Shown in pieces: positions 25,778-48,636 of a stretch of 50,748 nt of DNA. The notes below the pieces were generated by a model. That model saw nothing but the letters and a program-made list of their open reading frames with translations. It was not told the DNA's origin and made no database searches. Each line of letters starts with the position of its first letter. The stretch's first letter is position 1. Where the stretch lies: the NCBI RefSeq assembly GCF_000159035.1, contig NZ_DS999576.1, positions 190,968-241,715 on the forward strand, read 5' to 3'. The translations under genes and the position numbers were made by a program. Source of the DNA: Actinomyces urogenitalis DSM 15434. Lineage in GTDB: Bacteria; Actinomycetota; Actinomycetes; Actinomycetales; Actinomycetaceae.

Positions 25778-25850
25778 GGGGCTATGGCGCAGTTGGTAGC
25801 GCGCTTCCATGGCATGGAAGAGGTCGGGGGTTCGAATCCCCCTAGCTCCA
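25778..25850 (+). tRNA. tRNA-Ala (GGC), copy 1
   Basis: 73 nt. The acceptor stem GGGGCTA pairs with TAGCTCC, with discriminator A and no encoded CCA. The D arm is GCGC-AGTTGGTA-GCGC. The anticodon stem CTTCC/GGAAG encloses ATGGCAT, giving anticodon GGC (reads GCC and GCT). The T arm is GGGGG-TTCGAAT-CCCCC. Confidence 0.97.
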
Positions 25851-25891
25851 CGATCTGCTTGGAACGTCAGTTCTCAGCGGTCTCCCATCTC

Positions 25892-25964
25892 GGGGCTATG
25901 GCGCAGTTGGTAGCGCGCTTCCATGGCATGGAAGAGGTCGGGGGTTCGAATCCCCCTAGCTCCA
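25892..25964 (+). tRNA. tRNA-Ala (GGC), copy 2
   Basis: Identical in sequence to the copy 114 bp upstream, with the same anticodon GGC and no encoded CCA. The two are probably co-transcribed and end at the terminator just downstream. Confidence 0.97.
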
Positions 25965-25972
25965 CGATCACC

Positions 25973-40901: not shown

Positions 40902-42389
40902 TTAGCGCAGGGTGACGGCCACCTCGAAGGGGCGCTGCCAGGGCAGTCGGGCGCTGACCAGCTCCACCTGGGGCGCCTGCGGGTGGGTGGCGATGAATGC
41001 TCTCATCTGCTCGGCCACCTCGGCCTCGAGGCCTGCCAGGGCCGAGGCGTCCTCAATGACGGCCGTCTGGCCTCCGGTGGAGCGGTAGTACTCCGTGCGG
41101 ATCCGGGTCTGGTAGAGGTAGTCGTCCAGGAGCCGGGTCCACAGGGCGATGTCGCGGGCACGCTCGCACAGCTCCCCGCGCTCGCTGCCCACGTACTCGG
41201 CCACTGCCGTCGCCAGCACCGCGCCGATTGTGTTACCGGCCGTGTTCCACCCGCCGTAGGCGGACAGGGACCAGAAGGTGCCGTCTGCCAGCAGGTCCTC
41301 CACCAACACCGGATCGGCACCGTTGGTGTAGCGCACGTCCGCCAGGGCCACGCGCTTGCCCGAGGCCAGCAGCTCGCGCACGAGGCTTGCGGTCAGCGCG
41401 GCGGCCTCCGGCTCAGGCTCGGGCGTGGATCCCCACCAGTCGTCGTTGACCGGGCCCGGGGCGTGGACGACGAGGTGGATATCGGCGTCGTCACCGCTGG
41501 AGGGCAGGGCGTCACAGGCGCGGATCTGGGCCTCCACCGAGATGGACAGCGGGACGTTCTCGTAGCTGGGAATGCGCAGCATGCCCTCCTCGTCCGCGCA
41601 GTGGACAGCGATGGCGGGCTGGTGGGCCCCGGCGACGAGCGCGCGGGCCGTCATGGTGGCGCCGACCTCGTCAGCACCGGGGTACATGAGCATGTTCCTC
41701 AGGGAGGGCAGCGCCCGGCGCCAGTGGCCGATCCAGTACTGCTCGGCGGATCCTGCGGAGTAGTAGGCAGTGTCGTCAGCAGTGACGGCCAGGGAGGAGA
41801 CCACGCCCTCGTGGACCAGGTCCAGCGTAGCGAGGTTGACCATGTGGTTGCGCAGGCGGCGTCCCTCATAGTCCTCCCGCACCCGCGCGGGCACCGGCGA
41901 GGGGGAGGGCGGCCCGGCAAGCTCGTCACGGATGTCGAGCTCCAGGCTGCGGTGCAGGTCCGCACCCAGGGCGTGGAGCTCACGTCCGTAGTCGGACCAG
42001 TAGGTGGGCTCCTCCTGGTTGGAGTAGGAGTCCGAGGCACGCATGACCAGCGAGGTGGCGATGATCCTCAGGCCCGGGTCGCCAGCCTTGAGCGTGCGCA
42101 GCAGGTCGAGGCGTCCCAGCGCCTGGCTGACGGAGTCGTCGGTGATACGGGCGGGGATGATGCCGCCGAAGACGAGGGTGTCTATGCAGGCCACCAGGCT
42201 CGCCCCCTCGTGGTCCTGGGACTGCTCGCGTACCCATCCGGCCAGCTCGTCGAGGTCCGCGGGGGTGCGGAAGCGGGGGAGCGCCGCGGTGGGCGGCAGG
42301 CTGATCGAGGCTCCTCCGATGGAGGCGACGAGCGCCGGGATCTGAGTGTTGACCGGGCGCTCGTCGAGCGGGATGACGACAATGTGCAT
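40902..42389 (-). CDS. DUF4127 family protein
   Basis: 495 aa from the ATG at 42389, one base beyond the gntR stop; the longer frame overlaps gntR. The N-terminus HIVVIPLDERPVNTQIPAL with the P-L-D-E-R-P-V-N motif (residues 7-14) identifies DUF4127, an uncharacterised cytoplasmic family of about 500 aa. Other conserved-looking patches are VACIDTLVFGGIIPARI, TADDTAYYSAG, YPGADEVGATMTARAL, and LADVRYTNGADPVLVEDLL. The many Asp/Glu/His/Arg residues suggest a metal enzyme or isomerase-like fold, but no catalytic motif is known to me. There is no signal peptide. It is co-transcribed with the GntR regulator and faces a glycan importer operon, so a role in processing the imported sugar is likely. 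Confidence 0.85.
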   Translation of the reverse strand: MHIVVIPLDERPVNTQIPALVASIGGASISLPPTAALPRFRTPADLDELAGWVREQSQDHEGASLVACIDTLVFGGIIPARITDDSVSQALGRLDLLRTLKAGDPGLRIIATSLVMRASDSYSNQEEPTYWSDYGRELHALGADLHRSLELDIRDELAGPPSPSPVPARVREDYEGRRLRNHMVNLATLDLVHEGVVSSLAVTADDTAYYSAGSAEQYWIGHWRRALPSLRNMLMYPGADEVGATMTARALVAGAHQPAIAVHCADEEGMLRIPSYENVPLSISVEAQIRACDALPSSGDDADIHLVVHAPGPVNDDWWGSTPEPEPEAAALTASLVRELLASGKRVALADVRYTNGADPVLVEDLLADGTFWSLSAYGGWNTAGNTIGAVLATAVAEYVGSERGELCERARDIALWTRLLDDYLYQTRIRTEYYRSTGGQTAVIEDASALAGLEAEVAEQMRAFIATHPQAPQVELVSARLPWQRPFEVAVTLR

Positions 42390-42390
42390 C

Positions 42391-43113
42391 TCAGTTGCCC
42401 TTCCTCGTGATGGTGTTGTGGTACTTGTACCGGTCGCCGCGCAGAAGCGTCTCGCAGTAGGCGATCGGGGTGCCGTCATGGCTGCGCATCGTCTTGGCCA
42501 CCAGCAGGGCCGGCATCATCGCCAGGGTCCGCAGCATCTGGGCCGAGCGCCGGTCCAGGACGGAGGCGGAGACGGTCTCGTCGATCTGGTCGATGGGCAG
42601 CTCGTAGCGGCTGAGCAGGGTCTCCAGCAGGGAGGCGTCACGGTCCAGGCTGGTCAGGTCCTCCACGAGGTCGCGGCGGATCCAGGTCTGGTCAATGGCG
42701 ATCGGGGCGCGGGCGATGGTGCGCAGGCGCATGATCGTGCGCAGCTCCGTGCCCGGAGGGACCTCCAGGAAGGTGGACATGCGGGCGTCGGCACTGACGG
42801 TGGAGATGGAGACCTGCGCGTTGCCCGGCTGGAGGCCGCGGGCGCGTGCCTCCCCGGTGAAGGAGGAAGTGATGAGGCTGCGTGAGCGCGAGGCGCGTGA
42901 GACGAAGCTGCCCGCGCCCTGACGACGGCGGACCAGGCCTTCGGTGACCAGGGCGTCGATAGCCCGGCGCACGGTGAGCCGGTTGACGCCGTAGGTGGTG
43001 GCGAGCTCGCGCTCGGAGGGCAGGCGCGCACCGTCGGCGAGCTCGTGGGTGACGAGCTCGATGAGGGCCTCACGCAGGGCCTGCGGACCGGTAGGTGGTG
43101 AATCAGTCGCCAA
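42391..43113 (-). CDS. GntR/HutC-family transcriptional regulator
   Basis: 240 aa from the TTG at 43113, chosen because GGAG lies nine bases upstream and the length fits the HutC class; the frame is open to an ATG at 43194 without any ribosome site. The winged helix (about 8-75) has LPSERELATTYGVNRLTVRRAIDALVTEGL and QGAGSFV. The UTRA effector domain (about 90-235) includes PGTELRTIMRLRTI and the closing KYHNTITRKG segment. UTRA regulators bind sugar phosphates or amino sugars; with a hexosaminidase in the divergent operon, an amino-sugar derivative is a reasonable effector. Confidence 0.9.
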   Translation of the reverse strand: MATDSPPTGPQALREALIELVTHELADGARLPSERELATTYGVNRLTVRRAIDALVTEGLVRRRQGAGSFVSRASRSRSLITSSFTGEARARGLQPGNAQVSISTVSADARMSTFLEVPPGTELRTIMRLRTIARAPIAIDQTWIRRDLVEDLTSLDRDASLLETLLSRYELPIDQIDETVSASVLDRRSAQMLRTLAMMPALLVAKTMRSHDGTPIAYCETLLRGDRYKYHNTITRKGN

Positions 43114-43377
43114 TGTGGAGTACTCCAGTGTGCTCTGACTGTGTGGTGGGGTGCCTCGTGTGTACACCTCTTGAAAGAAGGATGAGGCCAACATGTGGCA
43201 AAAACAAGCGGATAAGTATGAATGTGACTTGAGTCATATATGAAGTGGGTGGACAGTTAAGGGAGTCCCTCTTAATTTGCTGGTGTATCCCAATTGCGGG
43301 TTGGTCATCTTTCTCGATGGCGAGAGAGCCCTGACGGGTCTCAGCGGCCAGCGCGCGTCTCACGGAAGGAGCACGGG
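43114..43377. promoter_or_regulatory. Divergent operator region of the glycan locus
   Basis: Lower GC than the surroundings. It holds four short palindromes: TGGAGTACTCCA (43116-43127), GTGTACAC (43160-43167), TGACT-TG-AGTCA (43225-43236) and AGGGA-G-TCCCT (43260-43270). One or more are likely GntR operators; the first overlaps the regulator's own ribosome site, suggesting autoregulation. GGAAGGAG lies eight bases before 43378. Confidence 0.5.
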
Positions 43378-44646
43378 ATGGACATCGCAAGGAGGCGCTT
43401 CCTGGAGGCTGCCGCGCTCACCATGGCCCTGGCCGGCACCGCAGCCTGCGGCGGCGGCAACGACGGCAGCGGCAAGGGTGAGGGCTCGGGCACGCTGGAG
43501 TTCTGGACCATCGCGCTCCAGCCCACCTTCACCGACTACTTCAACGGCCTTATCAAGGCCTATGAGGAGGCCAACCCCGGGGTCAAGGTCAACTGGACGG
43601 ACCTGCCCTATGACTCCATCGAGGAGAAGCTCATCACCGCCTCGGCCGGCGGCACCGCCCCGGACGTGGTCAACCTCAACACCGAGTTCGCCCTGACGAT
43701 GGCTGGCAAGAAGGCCCTGGCTGACATCGCCAAGCTGACCACCAGCGAGGAGCAGGCCGTCTACATCGAGAGCCTGTGGGACTCGGCCAAGCTGGGGGAC
43801 GCCGTCTACGCCTTCCCCTGGTACGCCGCGCCGAACATCATGATCTACAACAAGTCCCTGTTCGAGAAGGCAAGGCTGACCAGCCAGCCCACCACCTACA
43901 CCGAGGCCCTCCAGATGGCCCCGACCATGAAGGCGGCCACCGGTGCCTACCTGTTTAACCCGCCCACGCTGTTCAACCTCTTCTCCGAGGAGGACGTGGC
44001 GATCCTGAGCGAGGACAAGACCAAGGCCACCTTCGCCACCGATACTGCTGACAAGCTGCTCTCCAGCTTCAAGGAGCTCACGGACAAGGATGACCTGCCC
44101 AAGACCGACTGGGGGCAGTGGGACACCGAGCTCAAGCTCTTTGAGACCGGCCAGTTGGCCATCATCAACTCCTCCTCGGCCTCGGTGGCACGCATCAAGG
44201 ACGAGGCCCCGGACGTCTACGAGCAGATCGGCATCGCCATGCCGCTCAAGGGCGCCGCAGGCGTCTCGCGCAACCCGCTGATGAACCTGGTCATCCCCTC
44301 CAAGTCCTCCCAGCAGGAGGCTGCGGCCAAGTTCGCCATGTTCATCACCGGTGATGACAACCAGCTCAGCTTTGCCAAGGAGGCGGGGATCTTCCCCTCC
44401 ACGGTCAAGGCCTCGCAGGACCCCTACTTCACCTCGGACACCTCCACGATCGAGGGTCAGGCCTCGGCCATGTGCGCTGAGGCCTCCAAGACCAGCGCGG
44501 ACTTCTCTCTGGGAGTGGAGGGCCAGTCCACCATCGCTGACGAGGTCAACAAGGCCTACGAGGCGGCCGTCATCAACGGCGACGACGTCAAGGAGTCCCT
44601 GGCCAGCGCTCAGGAGGCCGTTGACGCACTGCTGAAACAGGGATGA
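43378..44646 (+). CDS. Sugar ABC transporter substrate-binding lipoprotein
   Basis: 422 aa, ATG with GGAAGGAG upstream. The N-terminus ARRRFLEAAALTMALAGTAAC combines a twin-arginine-like motif (residues 5-10) with a lipobox ending at C24, so the mature protein is probably a Tat- or Sec-exported lipoprotein. Family 1 sugar-binding fold: LEFWTIALQPTFTDYFNGLI, GTAPDVVNLNTEFA, and GDAVYAFPWYAAPNIMIYNK are typical. It captures an oligosaccharide outside the cell and delivers it to the two permeases encoded next. Specificity cannot be read directly; the enzymes downstream suggest a HexNAc-containing, esterified glycan. Confidence 0.92.
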   Translation: MDIARRRFLEAAALTMALAGTAACGGGNDGSGKGEGSGTLEFWTIALQPTFTDYFNGLIKAYEEANPGVKVNWTDLPYDSIEEKLITASAGGTAPDVVNLNTEFALTMAGKKALADIAKLTTSEEQAVYIESLWDSAKLGDAVYAFPWYAAPNIMIYNKSLFEKARLTSQPTTYTEALQMAPTMKAATGAYLFNPPTLFNLFSEEDVAILSEDKTKATFATDTADKLLSSFKELTDKDDLPKTDWGQWDTELKLFETGQLAIINSSSASVARIKDEAPDVYEQIGIAMPLKGAAGVSRNPLMNLVIPSKSSQQEAAAKFAMFITGDDNQLSFAKEAGIFPSTVKASQDPYFTSDTSTIEGQASAMCAEASKTSADFSLGVEGQSTIADEVNKAYEAAVINGDDVKESLASAQEAVDALLKQG

Positions 44647-44681
44647 GCCAGCCTGTTCACCGGTGGACGGCTGGCGGCTGC

Positions 44682-44737
44682 GGACCGCTCACTGCCGGTC
44701 CTGAGCCGGCGGTCCGGGCCAAGCTGGCCCGGACCGC
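44682..44737 (+). promoter_or_regulatory. Competing hairpins between binding protein and permease genes
   Basis: GGACCGC (44682-44688) can pair with GCGGTCC (44709-44715), which can instead pair with GGACCGC (44731-44737). The downstream version is a perfect 12-bp stem (44709-44720 with 44726-44737). Probably sets the ratio of binding protein to permease mRNA. Confidence 0.6.
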
Positions 44738-44785
44738 GCCGCCCACCCAGCCCCTGAACCCCACTCTCACGCTGAAAGCACTGTG

Positions 44786-45676
44786 ATGAAACTCCGAACC
44801 AGGACGACGATCCTTGCCTACCTGTTCATGGCACCGGCTCTCGTCATGCTCGTGCTCTTCGTGTTCCTGCCCATCGCAGGATCCATCCCCCTGGTCTTCT
44901 ACGACTACTCGATGATCGGGGACGTGGAGTTCATCGGCCTGGACAACTTCCGTCGCGCGCTGTCAGACGGCACCTTCCACATCGCGATCGTCAACACCAT
45001 CACCTTCGTGGCCGTGGTCCCGGTCATCCAGCTGTGCTCGATCGCGCTGGCGAGCCTGGTCAATCAGAAGCTCAAGGGCATCGTCTTCTTCCGGACCCTG
45101 TTCTACGTCCCCGTCATCACCTCGATGGTGGCGGTCTCCATCATCTGGTCCTTCCTGTTCGACTCCCACGGCATCATCAACACCTGGCTGATGGAGTGGG
45201 GCCTTGCCAACCAGCCGCTGGGCTTCGTCAACTCCTCCAAGACCGCGATGATCTGCATCATGTTCATCACCCTGTGGCAGGGGCTGGGCTACTACATGAT
45301 GCTCTACCTGGCGGGACTGCAGTCCATCCCCGCCGAGATCGAGGAAGCTGCCCGGACCGACGGCGCGAATGCCCTGCAGGTCTTCTTCCGCATCAAGGTC
45401 CCGATGCTCAAGCCCTACATCTGGTTCTGCTCCCTGAACTCCGTCATCTCGGCCGTGGCGATCTTCGACCCGATCTTCGTCATGACCCAGGGCGGACCCA
45501 ACAACTCCACCATGGTGATCAACTACTACTCCTACATCCGGGCTTTCAAGGACTTCGAGTTCGGCTACTCGGCGACCCTGGGACTGGTCCAGGCCGTCAT
45601 CACGGGCCTGCTGTCCGTCGTCGTCTTCGTCTACGGCAAGAGGAACGGGGGAATGACCTATGACAACGCCCGCTGA
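44786..45676 (+). CDS. Sugar ABC transporter permease (MalF-like)
   Basis: 296 aa. Six membrane helices: the first is ILAYLFMAPALVMLVLFVFL, and the last ends LLSVVVFVYGKR. The cytoplasmic EAA loop, EIEEAARTDGANALQVFFRI, couples to the ATPase. IFDPIFVMTQGGPNNST is typical of carbohydrate porters (CUT1). An in-frame GTG three bases upstream is an alternative start. Its end overlaps the second permease by 17 bp. No ATPase gene is in the locus, so a shared MsmK/UgpC-type ATPase encoded elsewhere must serve it. Confidence 0.94.
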   Translation: MKLRTRTTILAYLFMAPALVMLVLFVFLPIAGSIPLVFYDYSMIGDVEFIGLDNFRRALSDGTFHIAIVNTITFVAVVPVIQLCSIALASLVNQKLKGIVFFRTLFYVPVITSMVAVSIIWSFLFDSHGIINTWLMEWGLANQPLGFVNSSKTAMICIMFITLWQGLGYYMMLYLAGLQSIPAEIEEAARTDGANALQVFFRIKVPMLKPYIWFCSLNSVISAVAIFDPIFVMTQGGPNNSTMVINYYSYIRAFKDFEFGYSATLGLVQAVITGLLSVVVFVYGKRNGGMTYDNAR

Positions 45677-46598
45677 GACCATGTCCGCGCCCGCCTCCTC
45701 GCCGTCAGCCGCTCGCTCCCGCCGCGCCCTCAGGCGAGGCCAGCGCGCCGGCGTGCCTCGCCGTCGTCGCCCGGCGAAGGTGGTGGCGCGCCGCAGCGCC
45801 ACCATGACGCTGAAGTACGTGGCGTTGCTGGCCGTGGCCGTCATTGCGGCCGGCCCCTTCCTGTGGATGACCATCACCGCCTTCAAGAGCGGGCAGAACA
45901 TCTACGACCCCTCGATCAAGATCAGCCAGCTGACGGTAGCCAACTTCGTGGGCGTGTGGGAGTTCCTCAACATCCCGGCCTACCTCGGCAACACGGTGGT
46001 CATCACGGTCGGCTCGATCGTCATCGACGTGGTGCTGGCCTCCCTGTGCGCCTACCCGCTGGCCTGCATGCGCTTCCCGGGCCGCGACGTCATCATGGTC
46101 CTGCTCATTGCGGCCATGATCATCCCGGCAGCCGCGGGCATGGTCATCAACTACCTCACCCTGTCCAAGCTGCACCTGCTCAACACCCTGGTCGGCGTCA
46201 TCCTGCCCGGCTCCCTCAAGGTCTTCTCCATCGTGCTGCTGCGCCAGGCCTACCTGGGCGTGCCGCGAGACCTCATCGAGGCCGCCCGCATCGACGGTGC
46301 CTCGGAGCTGCTCATCTGGCGCAAGATCATGATCCCCTCGATCTTGCCGGCCATCTCCACGGTGGTGATCTTCGACTTCATCGGGCGCTGGAACGAGTTC
46401 CTGTGGCCGGTCATCGTCCTGCAGGACCCAGCCAAGTACCCGCTGGCCGCGGCGCTGCAGTACCTCAACGGTTCCTTTAACTACAAGTTCGGCTACATCG
46501 CCGCCGGCACGGTCATCTCGATCATCCCGGTGCTCATCATCTTCATCATCTTCCAGAAGAACTACATCAACGCCGTCGCCGGCGCGGTCAAGGCCTGA
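45660..46598 (+). CDS. Sugar ABC transporter permease (MalG-like)
   Basis: 312 aa. After a basic, probably unstructured N-terminus of about 45 residues come six helices, starting with YVALLAVAVIAAGPFLWMTI. The EAA loop reads DLIEAARIDGASELLIWRKI. FDFIGRWNEFLWPVIVLQ and the ending QKNYINAVAGAVKA are typical of CUT1 MalG-type subunits. Overlaps the previous permease gene, so the two are made in equal amounts. The esterase gene starts 15 bp after its stop. Confidence 0.94.
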   Translation: MTTPAETMSAPASSPSAARSRRALRRGQRAGVPRRRRPAKVVARRSATMTLKYVALLAVAVIAAGPFLWMTITAFKSGQNIYDPSIKISQLTVANFVGVWEFLNIPAYLGNTVVITVGSIVIDVVLASLCAYPLACMRFPGRDVIMVLLIAAMIIPAAAGMVINYLTLSKLHLLNTLVGVILPGSLKVFSIVLLRQAYLGVPRDLIEAARIDGASELLIWRKIMIPSILPAISTVVIFDFIGRWNEFLWPVIVLQDPAKYPLAAALQYLNGSFNYKFGYIAAGTVISIIPVLIIFIIFQKNYINAVAGAVKA

Positions 46599-46612
46599 GG
46601 AGGCCCACGCAT

Positions 46613-47605
46613 ATGCCCGTCCTTGACATGCCCCTGCCCGAGCTGCGTGCCTATGCCCCCGAGCTCGACGAGCCGGCCGACTTCGACGCCTGGTGGGCCG
46701 CCCAGCTCCAGGGCCTACCGCAGCGCCCCGAGCTCATCTGTGACGAGCTCCAGGACACTCCCTTCCCAGGGCTGACGATCCGGGAGCTGGTCTTCGCCGG
46801 GGCCGACGGCGATCCGGTCCATGCGCTGCTCACCGTGCCTGACGCTGGTGGCAGGCAGGACGCCGCTGCTCTGGGCACTGCCGGCCTGCCCGGCGTGGTC
46901 CAGTTCGTCGGTTACGGTGGCGGGCGCGGCCTGCCCGGCCAGGTTCCCTGGTACGCGATGGCCGGGTTCGCTCACCTCATCGTTGACCCTCGTGGCCAGG
47001 GCGGGGACTGGGCCTACGGCTCCACCGCAGACCCCGGCAGCACCGGCGCCCACGCAGCCGGATGGCTGACCGACGGCGTGGGCTCCCCGGAGACCTTCTA
47101 CTACCGCCGCACGATCCTGGACTCGGTGGCGGCGGTACGCCTCATGCGCACCCTGGAAGGGGTGGACGCCTCGCGCATCGCCTGCGTGGGCGGCTCGCAG
47201 GGTGGGGGACTGTCCCTGGCCGCCGCGGCCCTGGACGGCCACGTCCAGGCGGCCTGCGTGGACTCTCCCTTCATCACCCACATCCCGCGCGCCCTGCAGC
47301 TGGCCAGCGCCGGCCCCTACCTGGAGCTCGTGCGCTTCCTGGGGGTCAGCCCGCAGGCCGAGCAGGCGGCGCTGCGGACCCTGTCCTATGTCGACGGCGT
47401 CAGCTTCGCCTCGAGGCTGAGCGCCCCGACGCTCTTCTCCACGGGCCTGCTGGACCCGGTGTGCCCCACCTCTACCTGCTTCGCGGCGCACAACCTGTGC
47501 TCGGCCGCGGACAAGCGAATTGACGTCTACTCCTACGGCGCCCACGAGGGCGGCGGGCACCGCCAGGTGCTGGCCCACTGCCGCTGGCTGCAGGAGCACC
47601 TGTGA
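46613..47605 (+). CDS. Acetylxylan esterase / carbohydrate esterase family 7-like
   Basis: 330 aa, alpha/beta hydrolase with no signal peptide, hence cytoplasmic. MPVLDMPLPELRAYAPELDE is a typical CE7 start. IVDPRGQGGDW contains the CE7 RGQ motif (127-129). CVGGSQGGGLSLAAAAL is the nucleophile elbow (S195). D281 in TGLLDPVCPTST and H311 in YGAHEGGG complete the triad. CE7 enzymes remove O-acetyl groups from small acetylated oligosaccharides and from cephalosporin C. In this operon it would deacetylate a sugar after uptake. The stop overlaps the GH20 start (TGATG). Confidence 0.88.
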   Translation: MPVLDMPLPELRAYAPELDEPADFDAWWAAQLQGLPQRPELICDELQDTPFPGLTIRELVFAGADGDPVHALLTVPDAGGRQDAAALGTAGLPGVVQFVGYGGGRGLPGQVPWYAMAGFAHLIVDPRGQGGDWAYGSTADPGSTGAHAAGWLTDGVGSPETFYYRRTILDSVAAVRLMRTLEGVDASRIACVGGSQGGGLSLAAAALDGHVQAACVDSPFITHIPRALQLASAGPYLELVRFLGVSPQAEQAALRTLSYVDGVSFASRLSAPTLFSTGLLDPVCPTSTCFAAHNLCSAADKRIDVYSYGAHEGGGHRQVLAHCRWLQEHL

Positions 47606-48636
47606 TGAGCGCCGTGACGCCCTGCGCCTACGAGGTCCGAGCCGTCCACCTGGACGCCGGCCGGAAGTACTTCAGCGCCTCCTGGATCCACCGCCTGCTG
47701 GAGCGCATGGCCGCCCTCGACCTCAACGAGCTCCAGTTGCACGTGTCTGACAACGAGGGCTACCGCGTGGCCTCAGCCGCTCATCCCGAGGTGGTCAGCC
47801 CCGAGCACCTGAGCCGGAAGGACCTTGCGGGACTGGTCGAGGCTGCCGGCGAGCTGGGCGTGCGCCTCGTGCCCGCCCTGGACGTGCCCGGGCACCTGGG
47901 AGCGGTGCTGGCCCACCACCCCCGGCTGCGCGCCAGCCAGACCCAGGAAGGGTCCCGGCTCCTGGACTACTCCAGGCCCGAGGCCGTCGCCCTGGCGCTG
48001 GAGCTTATCGACGAGCTGCACGAGATGGTGCCCTCCACCGCCTGGTGCCTGGGCGGGGACGAGGCCTTTGACGTCACCCAGGAGGCGCCGCTTGCCGAGC
48101 GCTTCCCCCAGCTGGCGGCGGAGGCCGAGCGGCGTTGCGGGCCCGGCGCCCACGTCCTGGACGGTTACGTCCACTTCCTCGGTGAGGTGGTCTCGCACCT
48201 GGAGAGCCTGGGGATCACGGATGTGCGTGCCTGGAATGACGCCCTCTACCAGCCTGGTACCCGCCAGGGGCTGTCGGCGCAGGTGACGGTCGGTTACTGG
48301 ACTGACTGGCACCCGAGCTACCCGTCCCTGGAGCGCGTCCTGGCTGCCGGGCATCGCGTCATCAACTACTCCGACCGCGACCTCTACTACGTCCTGGCCG
48401 GTCCCGGTCACCCGTACGCTGCGCGTCCGACTGCGCAGAGCCTGGCCGGCTGGAACCCGCGCCGCTTCCCAGCGCGCCCTGACGGCACGCGCCAGGACCC
48501 GCAAGGAGACACCCCGTGGCTGCGCGGCGCGAGCCTGGCAGTGTGGTGCGATGACCCGGGCCTGGAAACGCCGGAGCAGGTCTGGCAGGGGCTGGAGCCT
48601 GCCATGGAGGCCTTCGCCCGCATCATGCAGGGCTGA
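47605..48636 (+). CDS. Glycoside hydrolase family 20 beta-N-acetylhexosaminidase, catalytic domain only
   Basis: 343 aa from the ATG at 47605 (AGGAG eight bases upstream; GTG 47602 also possible). A bare GH20 barrel without the usual N-terminal GH20b domain and without a signal peptide, so it should act in the cytoplasm on imported sugars. Conserved features: LNELQLHVSDNEGYRV, VPALDVPGHLGAVLAHHP, and LGGDEAFD with the catalytic pair D152-E153. The usual His of HxGGDE is replaced by Cys148. VRAWNDALY and SLAVWCDD give the remaining subsite residues. Releases terminal GlcNAc or GalNAc by substrate-assisted catalysis. The stop lies 12 bp from the convergent herA-like gene with no terminator between. 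Confidence 0.88.
   Translation: MSAVTPCAYEVRAVHLDAGRKYFSASWIHRLLERMAALDLNELQLHVSDNEGYRVASAAHPEVVSPEHLSRKDLAGLVEAAGELGVRLVPALDVPGHLGAVLAHHPRLRASQTQEGSRLLDYSRPEAVALALELIDELHEMVPSTAWCLGGDEAFDVTQEAPLAERFPQLAAEAERRCGPGAHVLDGYVHFLGEVVSHLESLGITDVRAWNDALYQPGTRQGLSAQVTVGYWTDWHPSYPSLERVLAAGHRVINYSDRDLYYVLAGPGHPYAARPTAQSLAGWNPRRFPARPDGTRQDPQGDTPWLRGASLAVWCDDPGLETPEQVWQGLEPAMEAFARIMQG

Follow-up and report, generated by a model that had tools for sequence, protein, structure and literature searches.

The cited sections of PMC5215778 describe a pneumococcal N-glycan locus in which the transporter NgtS has no local ATPase, MsmK being suggested for that role, and in which GH20C, a ROK protein and GH38 are also found. 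In sialic acid catabolism, the RpiR-family regulator NanR binds N-acetylmannosamine 6-phosphate (ManNAc-6-P), as stated in the section cited from PMC12713135. Here, we analyzed a 50,748-nucleotide stretch of DNA from Actinomyces urogenitalis DSM 15434 (contig NZ_DS999576.1; the whole stretch is called the window), in which the gene of a DUF4127 protein is part of a seven-gene glycan-use locus. Our main result, drawn from comparisons of sequences and gene neighborhoods, suggests that DUF4127 is linked to the catabolism of N-acetylmannosamine (ManNAc) through its association with NanE, the ManNAc-6-P 2-epimerase.

A genome scan returned 464 DUF4127 relatives, the best 80 of which gave 79 loci. 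Adding the window and eight loci of other genomes brought the set compared to 88 loci, among which one record (L023/L094) is counted twice and some are cut by contig ends. NanE was found in 63 of the 88 loci, a ROK kinase in 50 and a BadF-type kinase in 10 (either kinase in 60), and NanE together with a kinase in 59. The NanE encoded beside DUF4127 in L076 aligns with the solved NanE 4utt (E = 8e-78). The solute-binding protein (SBP) of a CUT1-type ATP-binding cassette (ABC) importer was present in 68 loci, a PF12831-type flavin adenine dinucleotide (FAD) oxidoreductase in 27, GH38 in 17, CE7 in 6, and GH20 in 4; GH84, NagZ and GHL10 were further glycan enzymes that accompany DUF4127 in other loci. 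The neighbor labels were taken from profiles of our own clusters and are fallible: the L080 and L091 proteins labelled DUF4434 scored low, the latter being DUF4855 by Pfam, and the L076 and L102 proteins labelled GHL10 are GH84 by Pfam. In Leifsonia and Microbacterium, the gene order is ROK, NanE, permease, permease and SBP facing GntR and DUF4127, while in Actinomyces CE7 and GH20 occupy the place of NanE and ROK. The idea of a NanE-ROK fusion was not borne out in any of the 88 loci.

DUF4127 was found in 51 of 299 genomes drawn from the order of G521 (Alkalihalobacillus), which we call Bacillales, and in 7 of 396 genomes drawn from the window's phylum; the family is not rare. Forty loci from 40 of the 51 positive Bacillales genomes contained NanE in 24 cases, ROK in 32, permease genes in 36, the PF12831 oxidoreductase in 36, and GH38 in 17, and a kinase was carried by 31 of the 36 ABC-type loci. 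Among 20 further loci of the class, partly chosen for small genomes and divergent members, NanE was among the genes shown in 6. DUF4127 was also found on plasmids, and in the six stretches read of eight records found, NanE was present in three (Priestia, Carnobacterium, and Enterococcus) and not shown in the other three. On the Carnobacterium and Enterococcus plasmids, nanE is accompanied by genes for a HAD phosphatase, DUF4127, a IIC component of the lactose/cellobiose-family phosphotransferase system (PTS; TIGR00410 above cut-off) and an RpiR regulator, and neither a ROK nor a BadF kinase occurs in these two stretches. Operons of the lactose/cellobiose-family PTS pair with a 6-phospho-glycosidase; in the two plasmid loci, only DUF4127 or the HAD protein are candidates for splitting a phosphorylated disaccharide.

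At the level of whole genomes, 51 of 52 DUF4127 genomes had a NanE match of at least 131 bits, the exception being G529. The 52 genomes comprise four from the genus plus the source genomes of 48 named loci out of 79, most metagenome-assembled genomes (MAGs) being left out. When genomes were drawn from the phylum, 14 of 198 had NanE above 100 bits, after exclusion of 46 weaker matches to the NanE model that look like related barrels. Four of these 14 are themselves DUF4127 genomes (G000, the center of the draw, G203, G224, and G245), and the DUF4127 genome G103 had a weak match only. With G000 included, NanE was present in 4 of 5 DUF4127 genomes versus 10 of 193 others (P = 8e-5), and without it in 3 of 4 versus 10 of 193 (P = 9e-4); both values are indicative only, as the sets are linked by descent and the named set consists of best-matching relatives. 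The DUF4127-free status of the 193 genomes comes from the phylum scan and the handles shown, with 118 NanE-negative genomes not listed by name. The initial annotation of the locus had staked its reading on the co-occurrence of DUF4127 with amino-sugar genes elsewhere, and NanE shows such co-occurrence in loci and in genomes alike.

The source of the substrate of NanE was considered with a model of the neuraminate lyase NanA, which also catches the DapA family. No NanA was found among the seven genes of the locus, the 20 named recurrent neighbor clusters, or the 40 Bacillales loci (0/40). The model matched in all 52 genomes and the TIGR00683 cut-off was passed in none of them, although in the window's genome the NanA-family gene next to NanE likewise falls below this cut-off. 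Five of the 52 genomes (G488, G495, G503, G519, and G526) have a single match to the model, presumably DapA, and in all five NanE lies within the DUF4127 locus. Because of this single match, NanE in these five genomes can hardly be fed by NanA. In the window's genome, NanE and a NanA-family protein are encoded side by side at L119, about 177 kb away, with NanK- and NagB-like open reading frames (ORFs; named by eye), and this sialic acid locus could serve the DUF4127 pathway.

The DUF4127 protein of the window matched PF13552 over profile positions 1-488 of 489 with 401 bits (cut-off 27). In an alignment of 70 relatives, the positions conserved in at least 66 comprise 10 Arg, 8 Asp, 4 Glu, 3 Asn and 3 Trp, with Asp and Glu together making up 12. 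No Lys (best 20/70) or Cys (best 36/70) is conserved, and His reaches at most 62/70 at one position. Since conserved Lys and Cys are absent, the residues would speak against a Schiff-base aldolase and a Ser/Cys hydrolase; they are consistent with a glycosidase but do not prove one. When DUF4127 was compared by hhalign with 59 neighbor clusters, including GH20, GH38 and GHL10, no match was obtained (best probability 0.9%). In the phylogenetic tree, the window's DUF4127 groups with two Leifsonia proteins and one from a Microbacteriaceae MAG (support 99/94), and the enclosing clade of 16 contains 11 NanE-linked members, three from Actinomyces, and two without NanE shown.

Several further observations were made on the family and its neighbors. 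No DUF4127 relative was found in viral contigs; one phage-labelled record from human feces had a DUF4127 match over 22%, and DUF4127 matched the PHROG phrog_20208. One Bacillales genome (G589) has two adjacent DUF4127 genes at L188, and Deinococcus ficus has DUF4127 near wecB and polysaccharide genes, outside the usual module (L129:9947-11200). DUF4434 (PF14488), a possible partner glycosidase, was found by profile beside DUF4127 in 7 of 87 loci (L029:11577-13403, L055, L063, L051, L048, L053, and L042), and Pfam confirmed it in L055, with fn3 and F5/8-type domains, and in L042. On the Enterococcus faecalis plasmid (L130:3978-13486), the nanE-HAD-DUF4127-PTS operon is flanked by two similar transposase-like ORFs, which by eye we take to be IS6-like, and the cassette may therefore be mobile as a unit. 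The Priestia plasmid encodes a protein of 559 amino acids whose first half resembles ROK kinases and whose second half resembles RpiR-type proteins (L126:6846-8525).

The genes of the Actinomyces locus and two operator-like sites are as follows.
40902..42389, minus strand: DUF4127 (PF13552) protein, 495 amino acids (Pfam 401 bits; start set by relatives)
42391..43194, minus strand: GntR/UTRA (HutC-type) regulator (ORF as listed; UTRA 97 bits, GntR 62 bits)
43116..43127, minus strand: second exact match to the palindrome, TGGAGTACTCCA, inside the 5' end of the listed gntR ORF
43281..43292, plus strand: operator-like palindrome TGGTGTATCCCA, between gntR and the SBP gene
43378..44646, plus strand: CUT1-type solute-binding lipoprotein (SBP_bac_1 131 bits)
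44783..45676, plus strand: ABC permease of the UgpA/MalF type (BPD_transp_1; 45 and 65 bits for the two permeases)
45660..46598, plus strand: ABC permease of the UgpE/MalG type (BPD_transp_1; bits as given for the pair)
46613..47605, plus strand: CE7 esterase (AXE1) with S195, D281 and H311 (Pfam 245 bits)
47602..48636, plus strand: single-domain GH20 with D153-E154 (Pfam Glyco_hydro_20 103 bits)

Pfam and a check of the ORFs upheld the order, strands and families that the initial annotation had given to the seven genes, with DUF4127 and the GntR/UTRA regulator facing the SBP, the two permeases, CE7 and GH20. By comparison with relatives, the start of DUF4127 was corrected from 42479 to 42389 (MHIVVIPLDERP). 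This start is one base past the gntR stop, and gntR and DUF4127 are therefore probably carried on a single transcript. Because homology to GntR proteins begins only near residue 35-46 of the listed ORF, the true gntR start may lie downstream. The ATG of the SBP at 43378 is preceded by AAGGAG, and a twin-arginine-like RRRFLE and a lipobox-like AGTAAC stretch are seen by eye close to this start. The CE7 and GH20 genes overlap by 4 bp. The pairwise ratios of nonsynonymous to synonymous substitution (dN/dS) between the seven genes and those of three other Actinomyces species (two for GH20) were 0.02-0.41, which indicates that all seven are under purifying selection and that the locus is a real, selected glycan-use cassette. 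Elsewhere in the window, two tandem tRNA-Ala(GGC) genes with equal scores lie at 25778-25851 and 25892-25965.

The SBP and two permeases of the MalFG/UgpAE type define a CUT1-type importer. According to Pfam, no ABC ATPase is encoded among the seven genes, an operon-encoded cognate ATPase being common but not required for CUT1. Elsewhere in the genome, a query of the MalK/UgpC type identified two such ATPases (53% and 51% identity), in line with the shared ATPase that had been implied earlier. Likewise, the proposal that the enzymes are cytoplasmic agrees with the lack of a signal-like N terminus in DUF4127, CE7 and GH20 as judged by eye. The CE7 protein is similar over its full length to the Thermotoga cephalosporin-C deacetylase/acetyl xylan esterase 1vlq (E = 4e-67); it has the AXE1 domain, and alignment to 1vlq places the Ser, Asp and His at S195, D281 and H311. 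The nearest solved structure to the GH20 protein is the lacto-N-biosidase 8hvb (E = 4e-24), whose GADEY aligns with GGDEA at 151-155, so that the Asp-Glu pair is D153-E154. The CE7 triad positions and the GH20 motif are partly those that we take to be typical of the families.

The combination of CE7 with DUF4127, which the initial annotation had regarded as new, recurs in other bacteria. CE7 was found in 14 of the 40 Bacillales loci (one being an edge fragment) and lies directly before DUF4127 in eight, with gaps of -26 to 59 bp. A ninth adjacent case, outside the 40, is on the Priestia megaterium plasmid, and the pair is also present in a Catellatospora locus. The recurrence in Bacillales loci rules out that the pair is unique to the genus.

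An exact TGGNNTANNCCA was found upstream of 24 of 45 GntR-type genes (44 loci), whereas random stretches of these loci would give 1.1. We take this pattern to resemble the DasR/NagR operator. The site at 43281 is kept in L016, L017 and L018, and that at 43116 is kept with equal spacing in L016 and L017 and was not found in the L018 stretch read. Three more exact matches to TGGNNTANNCCA lie elsewhere in the window, which shows that single matches also occur by chance.

Within the genus, DUF4127 is present in 4 of 49 genomes. In the window and three other species, the locus lies with equal gene order at a common leuS-GNAT site, and a herA-like gene abuts it in three of the four, being elsewhere in G021. 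DUF4127 and CE7 are kept in all four; GH20 alone is missing from the L017 locus (G019), where the CE7 stop is about 50 bp from the herA-like gene. In G008, whose LeuS is 94% identical to that of the window, leuS, GNAT and the herA-like gene follow each other, GNAT and herA being separated by about 215 bp, and the 15 kb read around this empty site contains no member of the seven-gene set. Since the shared site is occupied in four genomes and empty in G008, the locus is gained or lost as a unit.

We tentatively favor the view, at just short of an even chance, that the locus is a gain-or-loss cassette for a ManNAc-containing oligosaccharide, with DUF4127 cleaving the ManNAc bond and the GntR/UTRA regulator repressing through TGGNNTANNCCA. 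The lipoprotein and the two permeases, judged by their families, would import the oligosaccharide with power from an ATPase encoded elsewhere. In the cytoplasm, CE7 would strip O-acetyl groups and GH20 would strip beta-linked N-acetylglucosamine (GlcNAc) or N-acetylgalactosamine (GalNAc), as their families and intact catalytic residues suggest; we infer both the substrate and the target of CE7. DUF4127 would cut the ManNAc bond, releasing ManNAc, or ManNAc-6-P from a phosphorylated disaccharide, a role suggested by its context and its conserved carboxylates and arginines. To DUF4127 as an intracellular glycosidase with either product we give somewhat under an even chance. Both the PTS and the ABC forms of the loci would be explained if a disaccharide became phosphorylated during import and DUF4127 then released ManNAc-6-P from it. 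NanK and NanE would phosphorylate ManNAc and epimerize it to GlcNAc-6-P; in the window's genome they would come from the separate sialic acid locus, and in Leifsonia and Microbacterium the kinase and NanE present in the related operon would do that step. The GntR/UTRA regulator would repress both transcripts through the TGGNNTANNCCA sites. Import followed by intracellular breakdown, as first proposed for the locus, is consistent with the gene families. Of the role first proposed for DUF4127, an enzyme acting on the product of the same pathway for an N-acetylhexosamine (HexNAc) glycan, the amino-sugar link stood and was narrowed to ManNAc as the sugar indicated by DUF4127, while the making of free or phosphorylated ManNAc is now more likely than action on the product.

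A number of observations weigh against the ManNAc cassette. Neither NanE nor a kinase is encoded in the Actinomyces locus itself, and NanA-family matches number two or more in 47 of the 52 DUF4127 genomes. The stretches examined contained no NanE in 25 of the 88 loci, 16 of the 40 Bacillales loci and 14 of the 20 further loci (some cut by contig ends), and the divergent members L247 and L252-L254 show no part of the module; the DUF4127 family may therefore have more than one substrate. Sister DUF4127 loci do not hold the nearest relatives of the SBP and permeases: outside the genus, the SBP finds its best match (35% identity) in Alkalihalobacillus, and the best permease matches are in Bacillota and Chloroflexota loci, not Leifsonia. 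The imported ligand may thus differ, and these affinities count against simple orthology of the whole operon with the Leifsonia type. Only two PTS loci were found, with none more among the 20 class-wide loci read. Sequence searches of solved structures with single DUF4127 sequence and a 70-row profile gave no meaningful match. Finally, the 88 loci and the 52 genomes are best-matching relatives and are not independent by descent.

It is possible, if doubtful, that DUF4127 represents a new glycoside hydrolase family that cleaves intracellular 6-phosphorylated ManNAc disaccharides and delivers ManNAc-6-P directly to NanE. In Lactobacillales the PTS would then carry out the phosphorylation, a task that would fall to the ROK kinase where the locus is of the ABC type, and the family would provide a catabolic ManNAc route that bypasses sialic acid across Actinomycetota, Bacillota, Chloroflexota, Devosia and Deinococcota. 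The PF12831-type protein, present in 27 of the 88 loci and in 36 of the 40 Bacillales loci, points to another explanation, in which another HexNAc derivative is converted to ManNAc or ManNAc-6-P by DUF4127 acting as an epimerase, isomerase or eliminating enzyme, in many lineages together with the FAD oxidoreductase; a 3-keto intermediate open to inversion at C2 is one conceivable route. NanE would be required to reverse such an inversion. However, the oxidoreductase is not seen in any of the 16 loci that make up the window's clade and no nucleotide-binding motif is evident by eye in the DUF4127 alignment, and we consider this explanation unlikely.

It was also considered that the Actinomyces locus serves a plain GlcNAc/GalNAc oligosaccharide, with DUF4127 as a side activity on, for example, an unusual branch or a dead-end product. 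NanE and the kinase both lie outside the locus, the importer has its nearest relatives elsewhere than in sister DUF4127 loci, and among solved structures GH20 is nearest to lacto-N-biosidases, all of which would agree with such a substrate. The retention of DUF4127 and CE7 in 4 of 4 genus loci, with GH20 lost in one, and the NanE-linked clade of the window's DUF4127 argue the other way and make this decidedly unlikely. Very improbable, in our judgment, is the view that DUF4127 stands in for NanA as a metal-dependent neuraminate lyase, forming a sialic acid pathway with the ABC importer, the kinase and NanE. Under this explanation, the Leifsonia-type content (ROK, NanE, ABC, GntR, and DUF4127) would be a complete pathway to GlcNAc-6-P, the five genomes without a second NanA-family match would be accounted for, and the conserved arginines could bind a carboxylate. 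Yet a NanA-family gene next to NanE is already present in the window's genome, as is, by eye, a separate Dpp-like transporter, the GH38, GH84, GH20 and CE7 companions in other loci suggest neutral glycans, and neither His nor Lys is invariant in DUF4127.

In the one paper collection searched, DUF4127, PF13552, IPR025394 and mannosaminidase were unmentioned, as was DUF4434. The tie between DUF4127 and NanE gives DUF4127 a concrete and cheap assay, and it suggests that bacteria feed on ManNAc-containing polymers besides sialic acid. Teichoic acid linkage units and ManNAc-rich wall polymers are candidate glycans of this kind. Should the proposed activity be demonstrated, DUF4127 would constitute a new enzyme family, and bacterial use of ManNAc glycans could be tested in many genera.

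The ManNAc cassette shares features with several known systems. As in the pneumococcal locus, which was rightly named as a precedent for an importer without a local ATPase and an intracellular GH20 (GH20C), glycan fragments would be imported and attacked by intracellular exo-glycosidases, with GH20 in the window and GH38 and ROK in other DUF4127 loci; the cited sections of the pneumococcal account contain no DUF4127, CE7 or NanE (PMC5215778), and the window locus has no mannosidase. The ManNAc kinase and ManNAc-6-P epimerase of the canonical nanA-nanK-nanE operon also accompany DUF4127 elsewhere, and some DUF4127 loci carry RpiR regulators, as in sialic acid catabolism. Unlike that operon, DUF4127 loci have DUF4127 at the putative ManNAc-generating step and a CUT1 importer, and no NanA was seen in them (0/40 in Bacillales). 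The Carnobacterium and Enterococcus loci resemble the lactose/cellobiose-family PTS operons in having a TIGR00410 IIC beside a candidate hydrolase. They differ in carrying DUF4127 and NanE; the annotation of the Carnobacterium stretch contains neither a GH1 nor a GH4 product, and the window uses an ABC importer instead. Finally, the CE7 protein of the window resembles the CE7 deacetylases of Thermotoga (1vlq) and Bacillus (cephalosporin-C deacetylase, 1l7a) over its full length and in its Ser/Asp/His positions; unlike these two enzymes, it is encoded together with DUF4127.

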